A stretch of DNA of 64,000 bases from Tetradesmus obliquus (lineage: Eukaryota; Chlorophyta; Chlorophyceae; Sphaeropleales; Scenedesmaceae), in NCBI GenBank assembly GCA_030272155.1, contig CP126195.1, positions 2,401,001-2,465,000 on the forward strand, given 5' to 3'. The notes below the pieces were generated by a model that was not told where the DNA came from, searched no databases, and saw only the letters and a program-made list of their open reading frames with translations. The position numbers and the translations under genes are program-made. Positions 12,460 through 64,000 of this stretch are shown here, piece after piece (positions within the stretch are counted from its first letter, which is position 1; every line of letters begins with the position of its first letter).

Positions 12460-15400
12460 TTAGCTGACCACCATGCGTGACTTCATGCCTGCCCAGATAT
12501 GGTCCAGCACGTTGCAGTAGTAGTCCCAGGTGCCTGTGCTGTTGGCTGTCATGTCCACAACATATGTGTTGCTGGGCATGAGTCCCACAGAGTACACAGG
12601 CTGGCCCCCAAACTCAACTGCCTGGCCATCAAACACCGGACTATGCATATCAGCCTCAGATCCAAAGCCCATCACCATCCAGCGCACCCTATCCCCTGCA
12701 TTCAGCTGCAGGGTGGGGCCATTGCAGTACACAAAGCCGTTCATCGTGTGCATGAGATTACTCTCGGGGAAGGTGAGCGCAGCTGTGTCGATCTTCAGCT
12801 TTGTTTTGTTCTGCTGCAGCGCCAAGTTGTCACTGTAATACACACTCTGCATCTCATTCTGGATATTGAACAGCAGCGGCACCTCCAGATCAACACCCGG
12901 ATCAGCCAGCCGGCCCTTCTCGTAAATAACAAGCGGACCCACTAGCCCTGCATTGATATGCTTGATGTGATCAACACCAGAAACATACGAGTATGCAACA
13001 CTAGGGCCGTCACTGGATCCAGGGCCAGCAGTGTCAGGCACAAACCACTCGTAGCGCTTGCTGGCGCCAGGAGCCACCTTGCCTAGTGCATAGATGTTGT
13101 CAACCGACTGCGCAATGACTGCCTCTGCCTCTGCTGCTGCAGCGCTGATCTGAGACAGCCGCCGGCTGCTGCTGCTGCCTGCTGTAGAGTCACGCTGAGT
13201 CAGAAGCCTCCTGCCAGCTGTGGAGACACCTGCAGGTGCTGCTGCTGCTGCTGGTGCAGCAGGTGCATCTGCAGCAATGTTGACCTGGTACGCTGTGGTG
13301 TTGCCGATCGGCGCCAGACCCCCAAAGACCTGGATGCTCGCATCAAACAGCAGCCGATTCAAAAAGTGCACCACCAGCTTGTCGCCCACCTCAGCACGCA
13401 GCATGGGCCCTAAAAACCCGTGGTGCGGCGGCTGAGGTTTTGGCGTGCTGAAGCTGGCATCGGTGTACTCCCTGAACACCCCCTTCTTGTACATGCTGCC
13501 AAGTGTGGCGTTAGTGGTCTGCGTGAAGATCTTCTGCTGCTCATTCCAGGGCTGCCCGCTGCAGCCGTCATACCCAAGCGGTGCATAATCCCACATGGTA
13601 GGCTCGGCAGCGATGTAGTAGGTCCGGACAGTGGCGGCTGGGGGTGCCACGAGCTGTCCGAGGTTCTTGACGTTGTAGATCGCAGACATGCCGGCGCTGA
13701 TGTGGTCGTACACGTGGCACTGCAGCAGGCCCTTGCCCGGCACCAGTGGCCTGCAGCAGCAGCAGCAGCAAGGGCAGCAGCAGCATATTTACATACCAGT
13801 TGATCACATATATGATGTGGTCGTACACGTGCCACTGGAGCAGGCCCTTGCCAGGCACCAGCGGCCTGCAGCAGCAGCAGCAGCAGGGAATGCAGTGTCA
13901 GGAGGCAAGCTTGTGCATGTGTCACGAACACGTCCGGCAAGGAAAGTATGAGTGCAGGCAAGGGGGGGGGGGCACTCCAGAAAGTCCAGGACAGCATAAC
14001 CAAAAACTGAACAGGGCCCAGCCCCCGCCCCCCCCCCTACCCAAAAAAGTTGCGTGTATAGGCATGTTACTTGATAAGTTGTTATCATGTAGCTGATTTG
14101 ATAGGGTTTTACGGAATGAGCTGTGTTCATGCGTGTTTCAGGGACCATTCTGCTGATCTGATCTGGCCCAAAAAACTTGCTGTTGCTGAAGTTCGACGTG
14201 TGGTCAGTCCATTGCCAGCTGCTCCACATGTCTGTGAATGTCTACTGATAATATTTACGTGTGGAAATGATAGAACATGATATAAGCTTTCAAATGAGCT
14301 TGCTCTGCCTTCAATCAAGCTCCTGACCAAAAAGTTAGAAAACTTGAGACAAAAAGTGACCGGCCCCCCAGACACCCCCCCACCCAAAAAAGGCCTCAGA
14401 TTTCCCTCAAGAAATGACATTAGTTATTTGTAATAACATATAACATATCCTGAAGTTGTTAGGAGGAAAGGAATGATGGTGCTGTCAGTGGATGGAGTGC
14501 GCCCCCCTTGGTGCAGGGCATGGATACAGCAGCAGAATGTCCTGCGCACCTGACACCTGACACACAAGCAAGCAGCATACTCCTGCAAATTTCATCAATC
14601 CCCCCTATGCCGTGGACTCCTGTTTACATTTTGTTTGTTTTGACAACCGTACTCACGTGGTGTCTGTTGTCAGCATTGCACCAGGCAGCAGCGCCACAGC
14701 CTGCTTCCTGTGTCCATCCAGGAAGAGCTGGCTCTCTGCCGTGTTTGGTGTGTGCATGTCTGCGCTGCTGCCAAAGGCCATGAAGTAGATGCGCACTGAC
14801 TGGCCCTGCACGAAGTCAAGGCCTGGCAGGTTGCAGTACATGTAGCTGCAGGGGGCGGGGAAGGGCAGCAGCAGCAGCAGCAGCACGGGGGTCAGCAACA
14901 GCAGTAGTTCAGTGTTGGCTGCCGGCATCTGCGAGACTGGCGCAACAGAACCCCCACTTGCTGGCACAGGGCTTCTCGGTTGCCGCCTGCTGATGATGTG
15001 ACGCCTCGCGCGTGAAACCTGTGCATCAGGTTGGACTCCAGGAGTCCCACACCCGCATATCAATAACCGTACCGAAGTGCAATCACGATGATTAACAACT
15101 TGCTACCATCTGCTGGTGTGTCAGCTCACCCATTGATGCTGTGCATCAGGTTGGACTCCTGGAAACCTGCTCTCATCAATACCCGCAACAAACTGCTGTC
15201 ACAGAGCCTATCTACTGGTGCCATCGGCTGGTGTGCCTCACCCGTTGATGCTGTGCATTTGGTTTGACTCCTGCCAGCCTGCTCAACAACAAGGGTTGTG
15301 CACATAATCATTGCTGCATGCCTCACCCGTTGATGCTGTGCATCAGGTTTGACTCCTGGAAGCTTGGGTCAGCCAGCAGTGCCTCAAACGCGCTCGCGTT

Positions 15401-61800: not shown

Positions 61801-64000
61801 TGGCCTGCAATTTCACGTTATGAATAGTAGTTGATGCAGTTCGGGTTGGCAGCAAGCCGTTTAAACGGCCTTAGCTTGCTGCCAACCCAAACTGCATCAA
61901 CTACTATTCATAACTGCAGTGTAGTACATGTACATGTGCAGCATCAGAAATTTATGATGCTGCACATGTACATGTACTACACTGCAGTGTACAGCAGTGC
62001 AGCTGCAGCTGCTTCCAGATCACCCTCAGTTCCTCACCAGCGACACTCTTGAAAACTTTCAGGAGCTCGTCAATAGGCAGGATGCTGATAATCTTCTTGA
62101 CCCAGCCCTGTAGCCAAGACGCAGCGCCAAATGACATGATATGTGAAGGTTAATTAGGTTGACTTGCTCCTAAGACTGATGCAAGTGGCAGACTCGTTTA
62201 AGCTGGGAGCTTGCTCCGCACGTAACAAAGCCAAGCGCACGCAGACGGGAAATGGCAGGCACACCTAGATGCGTTACAAGAAACTGTCTAATGATGAGGC
62301 AACGTTGCTGGAGCGTTCTCCCTAACGTTCACTGACCCAGAGAACGACCCAAGTATACAAAGTGGGGCACCTGCAGACCTCACAGTGATTTCTCATACAA
62401 AGTGGGGCACCTGCAGACCTCACAGTGATGTTCATCTTGCAGTGCCTGCTGATGCACAAAATCAAGCCGTCTGCAGCCCGTACTGTGTGCTTGTGTGGCT
62501 TCATGACGTAACCACCATCTCTTTGAACATGTGCTGCAAGACAATCAAACCCCACTCACCTCCAAGTCGACAGCATCCTCTATGGCTTTAAGAATGTCTT
62601 TGATCGCGCCTTGAATGAGGTCGCCAATGACGCAGATGAAGGAGATCTCCTCAGGACACCTGCACACAAGAAGATTAAGGAAATCAGGCCACCTTCACGC
62701 GCTGATGTTACGCAACATCAACCAGTGTTCTCTTTAACTCAGCTTTATCAACCAAAACAGTTGTCAATCGTGCTGTGGCTGATTGCGCATGTTGTTCAGT
62801 TGCAGGAAATTGCATTTGGAGCAAGGCTAACAGCTGGGAAACAGGCGCTGCCAGCCATAGTACGTAATGCAGAGACAGCAATGCGCTTGGATACTGCATG
62901 GGTGCACTCCTGCTAAGTGACTGCACTCCTTCTCGGCAGTTTCTCTCCCACTCACTGGATGTGCTGCAGCGCATTGACAATCTTGTCCACGATTGAGATG
63001 ATGATGTCCAATGTATTGAGCAGCTGGTTCTTCACAAGGTCAACGATGCCCATCACAAAGTTGAGGAACTCCTTGAGGTCGTTCCAGCCGATCATGGTCA
63101 GCACGTTGTCAATCATGGGCAGCAGCTTGGTGGACTCGCGCACCACGCCTATGAGTAGCAGCGGCGGCAGCAGCGCAGCAGTGCACGGCAGCAGAAGGTA
63201 CCAAGATGTTTGCAACGAACAAGCAAGGTTGCCGATCATGGGCAGCAGCTTGGTTGTCTCTCGCACCACGCTATGAGTAGCAGCAGCGGCGGCAGCAACA
63301 GTAGCAGCAACGGCAGCAGACGGTAAGCAGATGCTTGTAACCAACCAGCAAGGTTGCCGGTCATGGGCAACAGCTTGGTCGACTCGCGCAGCACACCTAC
63401 GAGCAGCAGCGGCAACAGCGGCAGACGAACGTGTGGTGGTAGGCCGCGCACTGCTGCTCGTCGCAAGTTGCACCCACCAGAGGTAGACGCCAGCATGGAC
63501 GCTGCAACTTCTTTTATTATGAATCAAACTTTCAAGGCAAACCAGTCCGATTACGCTGCGCACCTGCTGCAGTATCGATGATGACGGCTGCTGCCTCGAT
63601 GGGTGCGGATGCGTCCACGTCCAGGGTGAGGTTGGGCAGGCTCAGCGAGAACCAGGGGATGTCAACGTTGACCGGCGGCAGGCTGAAGTTGAAGCCTGCG
63701 GCAGTGCATAGTTCAATTTGAATAAATTTACTTGATTGTAAGACGAAATGGCTTGTCAGGTGGGAAGCTCAGCGTGATATCAGAGCAGAGCTGTCACGGA
63801 GGCCTTCATGACACTGGCTGCGTCGCATCCCAAACAGCCTGACATGCACAACTCACGAGGTTGAGCGATTAGTGCAAGCTCTTTGATGACGTTTAGACAT
63901 GCGTGCGCACCACTCAGCAGTAACGGCTGCTGCTTTCAGTTCATCCGTCCCACCCACCACCGCATGTACAGCAGCTGCCGCCGTTTTGCACTCACTAGGA
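46801..64000 (-). CDS. Very large secreted modular protein (Cys-rich GCC2/GCC3-like, LNR, HYR-like), 5' end off window
   Basis: Exons in phase, 5' to 3': 64000-63996, 63912-63857, 63695-63564, 63148-62957, 62659-62560, 62107-62038, 61482-61391, 61117-61098, 60857-60589, 59989-59878, 59451-59389, 58887-58803, 58510-58410, 57937-57730, 57380-57244, 56614-56511, 56223-56200, 55775-55641, 55277-55151, 54939-54810, 54476-54358, 54055-54004, 53797-53741, 53515-53318, 52971-52804, 52480-52316, 52047-51909, 51519-51197, 50647-50468, 50193-50158, 49878-49821, 49500-49411, 49136-49058, 48755-48565, 48364-48223, 47996-47758, 47558-47276, 47008-46801. These make about 1,630 codons to TGA. The order is: amphipathic helices; a Cys/Trp-rich region I do not recognise; Cys repeats of the CxxCPxGTY type; two LNR units (GNGICNGG...GDCCEATC and GNGVCDDD...GDCCPSTC); a HYR-like strand (TWSAKDAAGNVATATRTYS); and Ser/Thr-rich beta strands. 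No membrane segment is seen, so it is probably secreted. Two microexons are 20 and 24 nt. Confidence 0.85.
61817..61914. repeat. Large hairpin, 40-bp arms
   Basis: Left arm 61817-61856 pairs with right arm 61875-61914 with one mismatch. The 18-nt centre contains the perfect palindrome CCGTTTAAACGG. It lies in an intron of the giant gene and abuts the next hairpin. Confidence 0.97.
61913..61988. repeat. Large hairpin, 34-bp perfect arms
   Basis: Left arm 61913-61946 is the exact reverse complement of 61955-61988, with an 8-nt centre (GAAATTTA). It shares two bases with the preceding hairpin. Confidence 0.97.
62355..62429. repeat. 40-bp tandem duplication
   Basis: ATACAAAGTGGGGCACCTGC plus ACCTCACAGTGAT occurs at 62355-62389 and again at 62395-62429 with no mismatch, in an intron. 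Confidence 0.95.
63231..63420 (-). repeat. Two echoes of the head of the 62957-63148 exon
   Basis: About 70-bp copies of the exon start (codes VVRE(S/T)TKLLPM) at about 63231-63300 and 63356-63420, spaced about 122 bp from each other and from the real acceptor at 63149. Both stay open over the copied part. Confidence 0.9.

Follow-up and report, generated by a model that had tools for sequence, protein, structure and literature searches.

Tandem copies of exon edges in the introns of Tetradesmus obliquus and a candidate route of intron growth

Intron gain by tandem genomic duplication is the subject of the Rogers model (Hellsten 2011; Gao and Lynch 2009), in which, according to the available parts of a review (PMC3443670), duplication of an exonic AGGT segment creates the intron. 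For potato RdRp, the available text of Ma, Lan and Niu (2016, PMC4974935) describes one recent case in one gene, where a tandem duplication across the intron–exon boundary made a new intron, the duplicate carrying the acceptor, the tract and a putative branch site. Introns of the green alga Tetradesmus obliquus, as analysed here, share with the former the supply of splice sites by local tandem duplication and with the latter a duplicate that crosses the junction. They differ in that the copies of exon edges, here termed echoes, occur genome-wide and lie in existing introns, which would grow from their edges, with the inner copies apparently unused. Small tandem duplications at breaks are ascribed to CST and Pol alpha-primase filling in 3-prime overhangs (Schimmel 2021, PMC8355091); these are direct and adjacent as in the alga, whereas the available parts of that report state neither a preference for splice junctions nor the unit of about 115 bp seen here.

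Intron lengthening is poorly understood, and the related core-Reinhardtinia green algae have long atypical introns, well above the usual minimum, for which the available text of Craig (2021, PMC8226300) gives no settled or accepted cause; unlike the findings in T. obliquus, exon-edge duplication is not mentioned there. Among the literature matches listed, whose coverage leaves out most subscription journals, no report of genome-wide exon-edge echoes appeared, and in PMC12571836, which lists T. obliquus assemblies, the words "intron" and "tandem" are absent from the main text.

Echoes across the genome sample

The sample comprised 314 kb in 26 sequences, namely the window (the whole stretch of 64,000 nt under analysis) and 25 further stretches, with all 17 contigs represented. 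Exons and introns were predicted without transcripts by the retrained version of a home-made gene finder, used throughout. Predicted genes of fewer than 240 coding bases were excluded from the edge, cluster, tile, simulation and near/far counts, low-complexity query windows from edge-window matching, the tile scan, the edge-echo count and the near/far comparison, and the satellite loci L011 and L018 (13 intergenic clusters) from event counts.

An echo in the exon's own intron was present at 81 of 611 exon edges, in a count to which offsets under about 50 bp are invisible by construction, and at 0 of 611 when matched foreign introns were searched at the same threshold; 72 of 340 introns, about one in five, held at least one. 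The comparison with random windows, by which the original prediction was to be judged, gave matches to the own intron for 14.5% (n = 283) and 12.2% (n = 287) of exon-edge windows, against about 2–6% of intron-sequence windows matching elsewhere within their own intron, 0/283 and 0/287 matches to foreign introns, and likewise none to reversed introns. Block-shuffled controls (one shuffle for each of the 26 sequences, in the window over 10 kb only) returned no self-hits. Donor-side echoes occurred in 34 and acceptor-side echoes in 27 of 377 introns. Echo offsets peaked at 105–135 bp with a second group near 225–255, and the typical unit was about 115 bp, mostly about 85–150 bp, with a size floor near 83 bp (the cluster search had a minimum offset of 60). 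Repeats in direct orientation numbered 382 at offsets of at least 60, compared with 38 inverted, in the 26 sequences; the units are adjacent and full units are present, as in tandem duplications from break repair. Patch-mediated repair in plants gives direct, adjacent duplications of this kind.

Such repeat clusters were found in 16 of the 26 sequences, which extends the original observation on genes of the window to the genome at large. Exon-edge echoes are thus confirmed as genuine, genome-wide and beyond chance. Exon prediction without transcripts leaves some room for an artefact of assembly or annotation, but we consider this extremely unlikely, given the many substitutions that separate the copies, the spread of clusters over the sequences, and the backing of the exons of RF1 and of the D1 protease by solved homologues. 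With datable edge copies in about one-fifth of the sampled introns, intron growth becomes directly measurable, since sequence alone reveals how old each echo is, its unit size and position, and its consequence for splicing.

Echo arrays in the genes of the window

The window contains 23 repeat clusters at offsets of 60–400, 18 of them mixed exon and intron: five in the ferroxidase gene, one in the KDEL/thioredoxin gene, three in the amino-acid transporter, two in FKBP, six in RF1 and one in the giant gene. All six genes in which echoes had been predicted carry them. The other five clusters are an RF1 donor echo and a ferroxidase acceptor echo, both misclassed, two clusters within introns (a 20-bp minisatellite at 16875-16985, and 60147-60339) and one intergenic cluster (2222-2621, a 41-bp minisatellite).

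RF1 is the best validated of the window genes. Its protein without the echo segments aligns over residues 5–359 of 367 with RF1 of PDB 1zbt (E 1.6e-103), and the outermost copies are therefore the real edges and the echoes intronic. All RF1 features lie on the plus strand. In the donor-edge array (42486..43200), the real exon tail 42486-42523, with the donor GT at 42524, is followed by echoes at 42608-42639, 42729-42763, 42850-42884 and 42990-43026, and by a very worn fifth near 43170-43200, seen by eye only. The acceptor-edge array (43330..43742) has echoes at 43330-43377, 43453-43496 and 43586-43625 ahead of the real exon head from 43702, with spacers that appear dissimilar from copy to copy. 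A second donor-edge array (43818..44302), of period about 136, has its real exon tail at 43818-43894, two echoes with starts at 43954 and 44088, and a third, older echo spanning 44223-44302. Four further edges carry single echoes: an acceptor echo at 41126-41199 (41126..41312; offset 113 from the copy 41239-41312, with the exon head near 41270), a donor echo at 41478-41559 (41346..41559; exon tail 41346-41417, offset 132), which is omitted from the aligned protein, an acceptor echo at 41663-41709 (41663..41823; exon head from 41781, offset 114), and a donor echo at 42008-42088 (41892..42088; exon tail copy 41892-41971, offset 116), the last classed as "other" and lying where the gene finder split the gene.

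Also on the plus strand, FKBP has an acceptor-edge array at 35569..35881 (92-bp period, 3.4 copies), and the KDEL thioredoxin-like protein an acceptor echo at 24002-24050 (24002..24189; exon head from 24145, offset 139). The amino-acid transporter has a donor echo at 30440-30548 (30194..30548; exon tail 30194-30298, offset 246), worn copies at 30722..30995 (offset 140) adjoining a predicted acceptor, and an exon and intron cluster at 31709..31836 (offset 98). On the minus strand, the giant secreted-protein gene has acceptor echoes at 63228-63278 and 63346-63403 (63099..63403; exon head 63099-63148). The ferroxidase gene, likewise on the minus strand, has donor echoes at 16495-16552 (16495..16661; exon tail 16619-16661, offset 109, 95% identical) and at 15125-15164 and 15003-15043 (15003..15366; exon tail 15327-15361), a pair at 16193-16323 and 15987-16117 (15987..16323, offset 206), and a large copy at 17874-18046 of 18120-18292 (17521..18292, offset 246, 95%), within whose cluster lies a donor echo at 17641-17707. 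It also has an acceptor-side echo at 18452-18481 (18332..18481; exon copy 18332-18361, offset 120) and an acceptor echo at 13813-13888 (13698..13888; exon-head copy 13698-13773, offset 115, 93%), whose cluster was classed "exon only" when the echo was miscalled as exon. Searches of the genome for cytochrome families gave no matches.

Divergence and splice-site retention of the copies

The sample yielded 88 echo records, or 86 exon–echo pairs after near-duplicates were merged. Differences within the 86 pairs comprise 184 synonymous and 234 non-synonymous changes, with no significant synonymous excess; echo copies evolve free of coding constraint, and both coding selection on echoes and their reading as duplicated or alternative coding exons are rejected, the 17 exon-only clusters lying outside this test. 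Identity drops steeply past about +5 at donors and upstream of −4 at acceptors, which is where constraint on the real copy ends; the flanks past the match were compared ungapped, and this makes the drop sharper. The GT or AG is intact in 72 of 86 echoes, many of which retain GTGAG, and many possible decoy sites are therefore present, as had been predicted. This retention might suggest functional decoy edges kept by selection for splicing regulation, a reading that we regard as very unlikely: neutral decay at 8–10% per site yields about the same retention, short echoes are 46% synonymous where about 44% is expected by our own reckoning for a constrained exon and a neutral copy, and one RF1 echo holds an in-frame stop. 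Functional or otherwise, echoes provide a naturally occurring collection of splice sites in competition, from which the spliceosome presumably chooses the outer one, and they bear on the role of exon context in splice-site choice.

Short echoes (49 of the 88 records) are more similar to their exons than simulated decay predicts, at a median identity of 90.6% vs 82.3% and with 51% vs 18% at identities of at least 90%. Their spacers no longer align significantly in 20 of 28 tested (29 records, one too short), and a spacer relic is found elsewhere in the intron in 8/28 at p ≤ 0.05 and 13/28 at p ≤ 0.1. Given the relics in those 8, short echoes represent, at least in part, full units that have worn down, and the idea that spacers were never duplicated is not upheld. 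Searched against the 314-kb sample, the 29 spacers matched themselves, their own array, low-complexity CTG tracts and a few weak short hits, and introners, that is, one repeat family at many loci, are rejected on this sample.

Within arrays, near echoes differ from the exon by 3.53 mismatches on average and far ones by 4.80 (30 pairs, the opposite in 10 and three ties). The echo–echo distance is 1.42 times the exon–echo distance, below the value of near 2 expected had each echo been copied independently from the exon; echoes therefore derive in part from one another, much as simple tandem duplication would produce. Among longer arrays, 18 of 33 rows terminate no more than 15 bp from a junction copy, 8.2 being expected, although the rows are partly non-independent (four represent one L009 array and two represent one L020 array).

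Placement of the duplicates and growth of the introns

Outside the two satellite loci, 135 clusters comprise 97 exon and intron, 17 exon-only, 11 intron-only, 7 intergenic and 3 other, where the first class requires at least 9 exon and at least 9 intron bases, so that some of its members may merely adjoin the junction. Random placement of 90–160 bp units would straddle exon and intron in 22%, which speaks against a minisatellite or satellite unit unrelated to gene structure. A hand count in genes with a Pfam family above cut-off (L003, L009, L015, L024 and five window genes) gave 42 mixed and 4 intron-only clusters. The 11 purely intronic clusters in the sample qualify the original remark that no such copies were seen away from exon edges in the six genes.

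A simulation of neutral tandem duplication in which copies anchored on an exon decayed more slowly, run on real introns at four indel/age settings, placed 42–51% of detected intron and junction events wholly within introns, compared with 11/108 observed. In the tile scan (score ≥80, satellites excluded), the frequencies were 0.013 intergenic, 0.012 intron and 0.015 junction, with no edge excess among these most similar tiles, a class dominated by few arrays and in which intron windows take in spacers of junction arrays. Event counts and simulation are thus at odds with placement independent of gene structure, as expected of break-repair duplications, and with copies being equally frequent away from edges, an outcome that would speak against the original prediction; the top tiles differ. 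Pure survivorship, favoured after the tile scan, failed on event counting and then on simulation. Neutral duplication everywhere, with junction echoes just staying recognizable through their constrained exon copy, agrees with the codon positions, the loss of splice sites and the exon compared with intron divergence in full units, roughly also with the way donor-side echoes become less frequent deeper into the exon, and with the tiles. However, it overpredicts intron-only events, underpredicts the share and similarity of short echoes, and leaves intergenic units outside satellites too few (7/135 clusters). That explanation is already strained, and we hold it to be unlikely.

Based on the collective evidence, our preferred reading, to which we assign a probability of roughly 0.45, is that introns lengthen by recurrent tandem duplication in units of about 115 bp, for which the conserved exon edge serves as both anchor and renewed seed. 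Units mostly about 85–150 bp across the exon–intron junction would be duplicated repeatedly, with the outermost copy as the working splice site (evident in RF1, assumed elsewhere) and the inner copies left to decay within the intron. The initial event would probably be ordinary break repair producing small tandem duplications, which is known in other systems. Because selection keeps the exon edge and splice consensus (about 30–60 bp) constant, that part would remain a homology seed, and unequal exchange or gene conversion between it and old echoes may add or refresh copies while the intronic spacers diverge past recognition. Seeding from a constant edge would therefore let exon-anchored arrays persist and regrow, and let wholly intronic or intergenic arrays vanish. 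The excess of arrays ending in a junction copy gives modest support to such seeding, the exchange itself being inferred indirectly from sequence patterns; the floor near 83 bp lies outside what it explains.

Alternatively, splice junctions might be direct mutational targets, where edge-tied breaks or nicks, from R-loops, nucleosome edges or transcripts bound at splice sites, give duplications of about 115 bp in the absence of re-seeding. The mixed-cluster share far above random placement and neutral simulation, the characteristic unit size with its floor, and the occurrence of echoes on both donor and acceptor sides favour it, but targeting alone leaves unexplained the excess similarity of short echoes and the tendency of longer arrays to end in a junction copy, and unit sizes are alike in exon-only, intron-only and intergenic clusters. 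We consider direct targeting possible, if rather doubtful. The original prediction, drawn from RF1, that the junction itself was amplified is supported in that many units span junctions; their direct targeting is not established, because re-seeding from the conserved edge accounts for the data at least as well. On either account, edges might be preferentially re-copied into their own introns as a selection-driven ratchet in steps of about 115 bp, which we put forward tentatively. If true, purifying selection on exons would indirectly drive neutral intron growth and explain the long introns of these algae.

Median intron length rises from 279.5 bp with no echo to 339, 429 and 533 bp with one, two and at least three (n = 268, 43, 18 and 11), which fits the predicted intron growth. 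The accompanying suggestion of intron birth fared less well. If the arrays were relics of introns born when exonic AGGT segments were duplicated in tandem, intron length would equal the unit between two copies, a pattern that most echoes lack, lying as they do in longer introns with a single edge copied and with examined spacers that bear no likeness to exons; we regard birth as a quite improbable general origin of the arrays. A handful of candidates have a length equal or nearly equal to the offset, those with equal length and with donor and acceptor copies in register being in L003 (137), L012 (172), L020 (132), L024 (237) and the window (178). The window candidate is the FKBP pair 35921-35997 and 36099-36175 (35921..36175, plus strand), whose offset of 178 equals the predicted intron length (35974-36151), a possible intron-birth pattern in a gene whose last exon is unsure.

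Local repeats in the sampled genome

The analysis covers 314 kb of a genome of 104.66 Mb in 17 contigs, namely the window (GC 0.557) plus 25 stretches of 10 kb drawn from all contigs. Available text of PMC12571836 gives a GC of 56.5% for Tetradesmus obliquus assembly GCA_030272155.1. Exons were called by a purpose-written gene finder trained on the sampled data, which returned donors of the form CAG|GTGAG and acceptors of the form pyrimidine-CTGCAG, introns having a median length of 287 bp. Each of the 10 submitted protein pieces received a Pfam family, the match of a kinase piece lying under the curated cut-off. 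A 248-residue piece of the predicted D1 protease differs from PDB 1fc7 by one substitution and two gaps, at which the gene model is short; 1fc6 and 1fc7 are Scenedesmus obliquus structures.

On self-comparison, the window and 21 of the 25 sampled loci showed direct local repeats, with 382 matches at an offset of at least 60 and 38 inverted matches; block-shuffled sequences, one shuffle per sequence, gave no self-match. The echoes, worn copies of exon tails with donor or exon heads with acceptor inside the adjoining intron, are well illustrated by release factor 1 (RF1), where the original prediction had claimed them. They are present there on both sides: 3' of the GGQ exon, the long intron contains about five worn upstream exon-tail copies with donor, then three worn downstream exon-head copies, and at another intron the next exon tail is present as three copies. 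Since the RF1 protein without echo segments aligns to RF1 of PDB 1zbt (residues 5-359 of 367), the outermost copies are the real exon edges. The last RF1 echo (window 44223-44302) is ~24% diverged, with one frame still open and several conservative changes; it could be an old copy or else the remnant of an alternative exon. An acceptor echo of the D1 protease pairs 1816-1866 with 1907-1957 of sampled stretch L032 (offset 91; predicted exon start 1910).

Association of copies with exon edges

When 44-bp windows at exon edges were searched against own, foreign and reversed introns, 14.5% of donor-edge windows (n=283) and 12.2% of acceptor-edge windows (n=287) had a copy in their own intron, and none matched a foreign or reversed intron. 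Of intron windows close to edges, ~5% match another place in the same intron. Windows 40 bp inside the exon matched at 5.6% on the donor side (n=233) and 1.7% on the acceptor side (n=231). That acceptor echoes drop off faster towards the exon interior may arise because a duplicated acceptor has to bring along a branch site and tract, which take up room in the ~115-bp unit at the expense of exon. Echoes occurred at 81 of 611 scanned edges and in 72 of 340 introns, with offsets peaking at 105-135 bp and a single echo below 75 bp.

Outside two satellite loci, 97 repeat clusters combined exon and intron (at least 9 bases of each), 17 were exon-only, 11 intron-only, 7 intergenic and 3 other, as compared to 22% exon-intron, 28% intronic and 25% intergenic for randomly placed units of 90-160 bp. 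Full tandem units, satellites excluded, were 14 mixed and 0 intron-only at 85% identity or above, and 39 mixed and 5 intron-only at 60-85%, among the events listed. A hand count in genes with a Pfam family above cut-off gave 42 mixed versus 4 intron-only clusters. The original prediction saw no copies away from edges in the genes it named; in the sample, mixed clusters dominate, intron-only clusters exist, and a tile scan showed no edge excess among the most similar tiles, a class in which a few arrays weigh heavily. This last result counts against an edge-specific reading.

None of the 97 junction clusters had a smallest offset under 83 bp, though the search began at 60. The exon-only clusters share unit sizes partly with the other classes, their smallest offset being divisible by three in 8 of 17; several probably represent echoes that the gene finder took for exons.

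Survivorship and decay of the copies

Junction echoes could predominate simply by remaining visible for longer, because the real exon copy is constrained. The copies decay as neutral sequence set against a constrained exon should: 86 exon-echo pairs show 184 synonymous and 234 non-synonymous differences (codon positions 127:102:189). Retention of splice dinucleotides (41/51 donor, 31/35 acceptor echoes) is close to the neutral level. The 17 full-unit records show 90.7% identity in their exon parts against 85.6% in their intron parts, where gaps are tenfold commoner. Short echoes have an identity of ~0.9 over the exon part and the splice consensus. In ungapped flanks it drops on the donor side, reaching 0.55 at intron base 7 and ~0.3 by base 13; on the acceptor side it is 0.5 at -5 and ~0.3 at -20.

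We simulated duplications placed randomly in match-free introns, with exons constrained, echoes neutral, indels allowed and detection identical. Intron-only events made up 42-51% of those detected across four settings, versus 11 of 108 observed (binomial probability ~1e-15 at 46%). Short echoes accounted for 206 of 739 simulated and 49 of 88 observed records, and 18% versus 51% of them had at least 90% identity. With intron-only share, short-echo share and similarity all off, survivorship by itself does not suffice, barring badly biased exon calls.

Proposed origin of the arrays, and other repeats

The pattern asks for an agent acting at exon edges or for a process that preserves exon-anchored arrays, and we favour the latter. 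The conserved exon edge, as the sole stable homology within an array, would seed recurrent exchange with its own echoes. Longer arrays end near a junction copy in 18 of 33 partly non-independent rows, against 8.2 expected; in the second RF1 array, the terminal copy is an older one. On average, near echoes resemble the exon more than far ones do; this holds in 17 of 30 pairs, with the opposite in 10 and ties in 3. Echo-echo distance is only 1.42 times the exon-echo distance, which speaks against strict copying from the exon, and junctions as direct targets of the duplication process are a serious rival to preservation of exon-anchored arrays.

As far as the available text of each source goes, intron gain by tandem duplication is an accepted route (PMC3443670), potato has one documented duplication that spans the border of an intron and an exon (PMC4974935), small tandem duplications can arise from break repair (PMC8355091), and the unusually long introns of related green algae are noted without explanation (PMC8226300). 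Among the papers listed in our literature searches, none described exon-edge echoes at genome-wide scale. At window 35974-36151 and in sampled stretches L003, L012, L020 and L024, introns are exactly as long as their echo offset and have in-register copies of donor and acceptor; these introns are candidates for birth by tandem duplication.

Other repeats in the window are a 41-bp minisatellite outside predicted genes (2222-2621; 9.6 copies, 92% matches), a 20-bp minisatellite of 5.2 identical copies within a predicted ferroxidase intron (16882-16985) and 18 copies of CTGTG within a predicted intron of the gene for the KDEL protein (23605-23694). The long arrays of sampled stretches L011 and L018, whose units measure ~297-333 bp and which lie where no genes are predicted, are probably satellite DNA.
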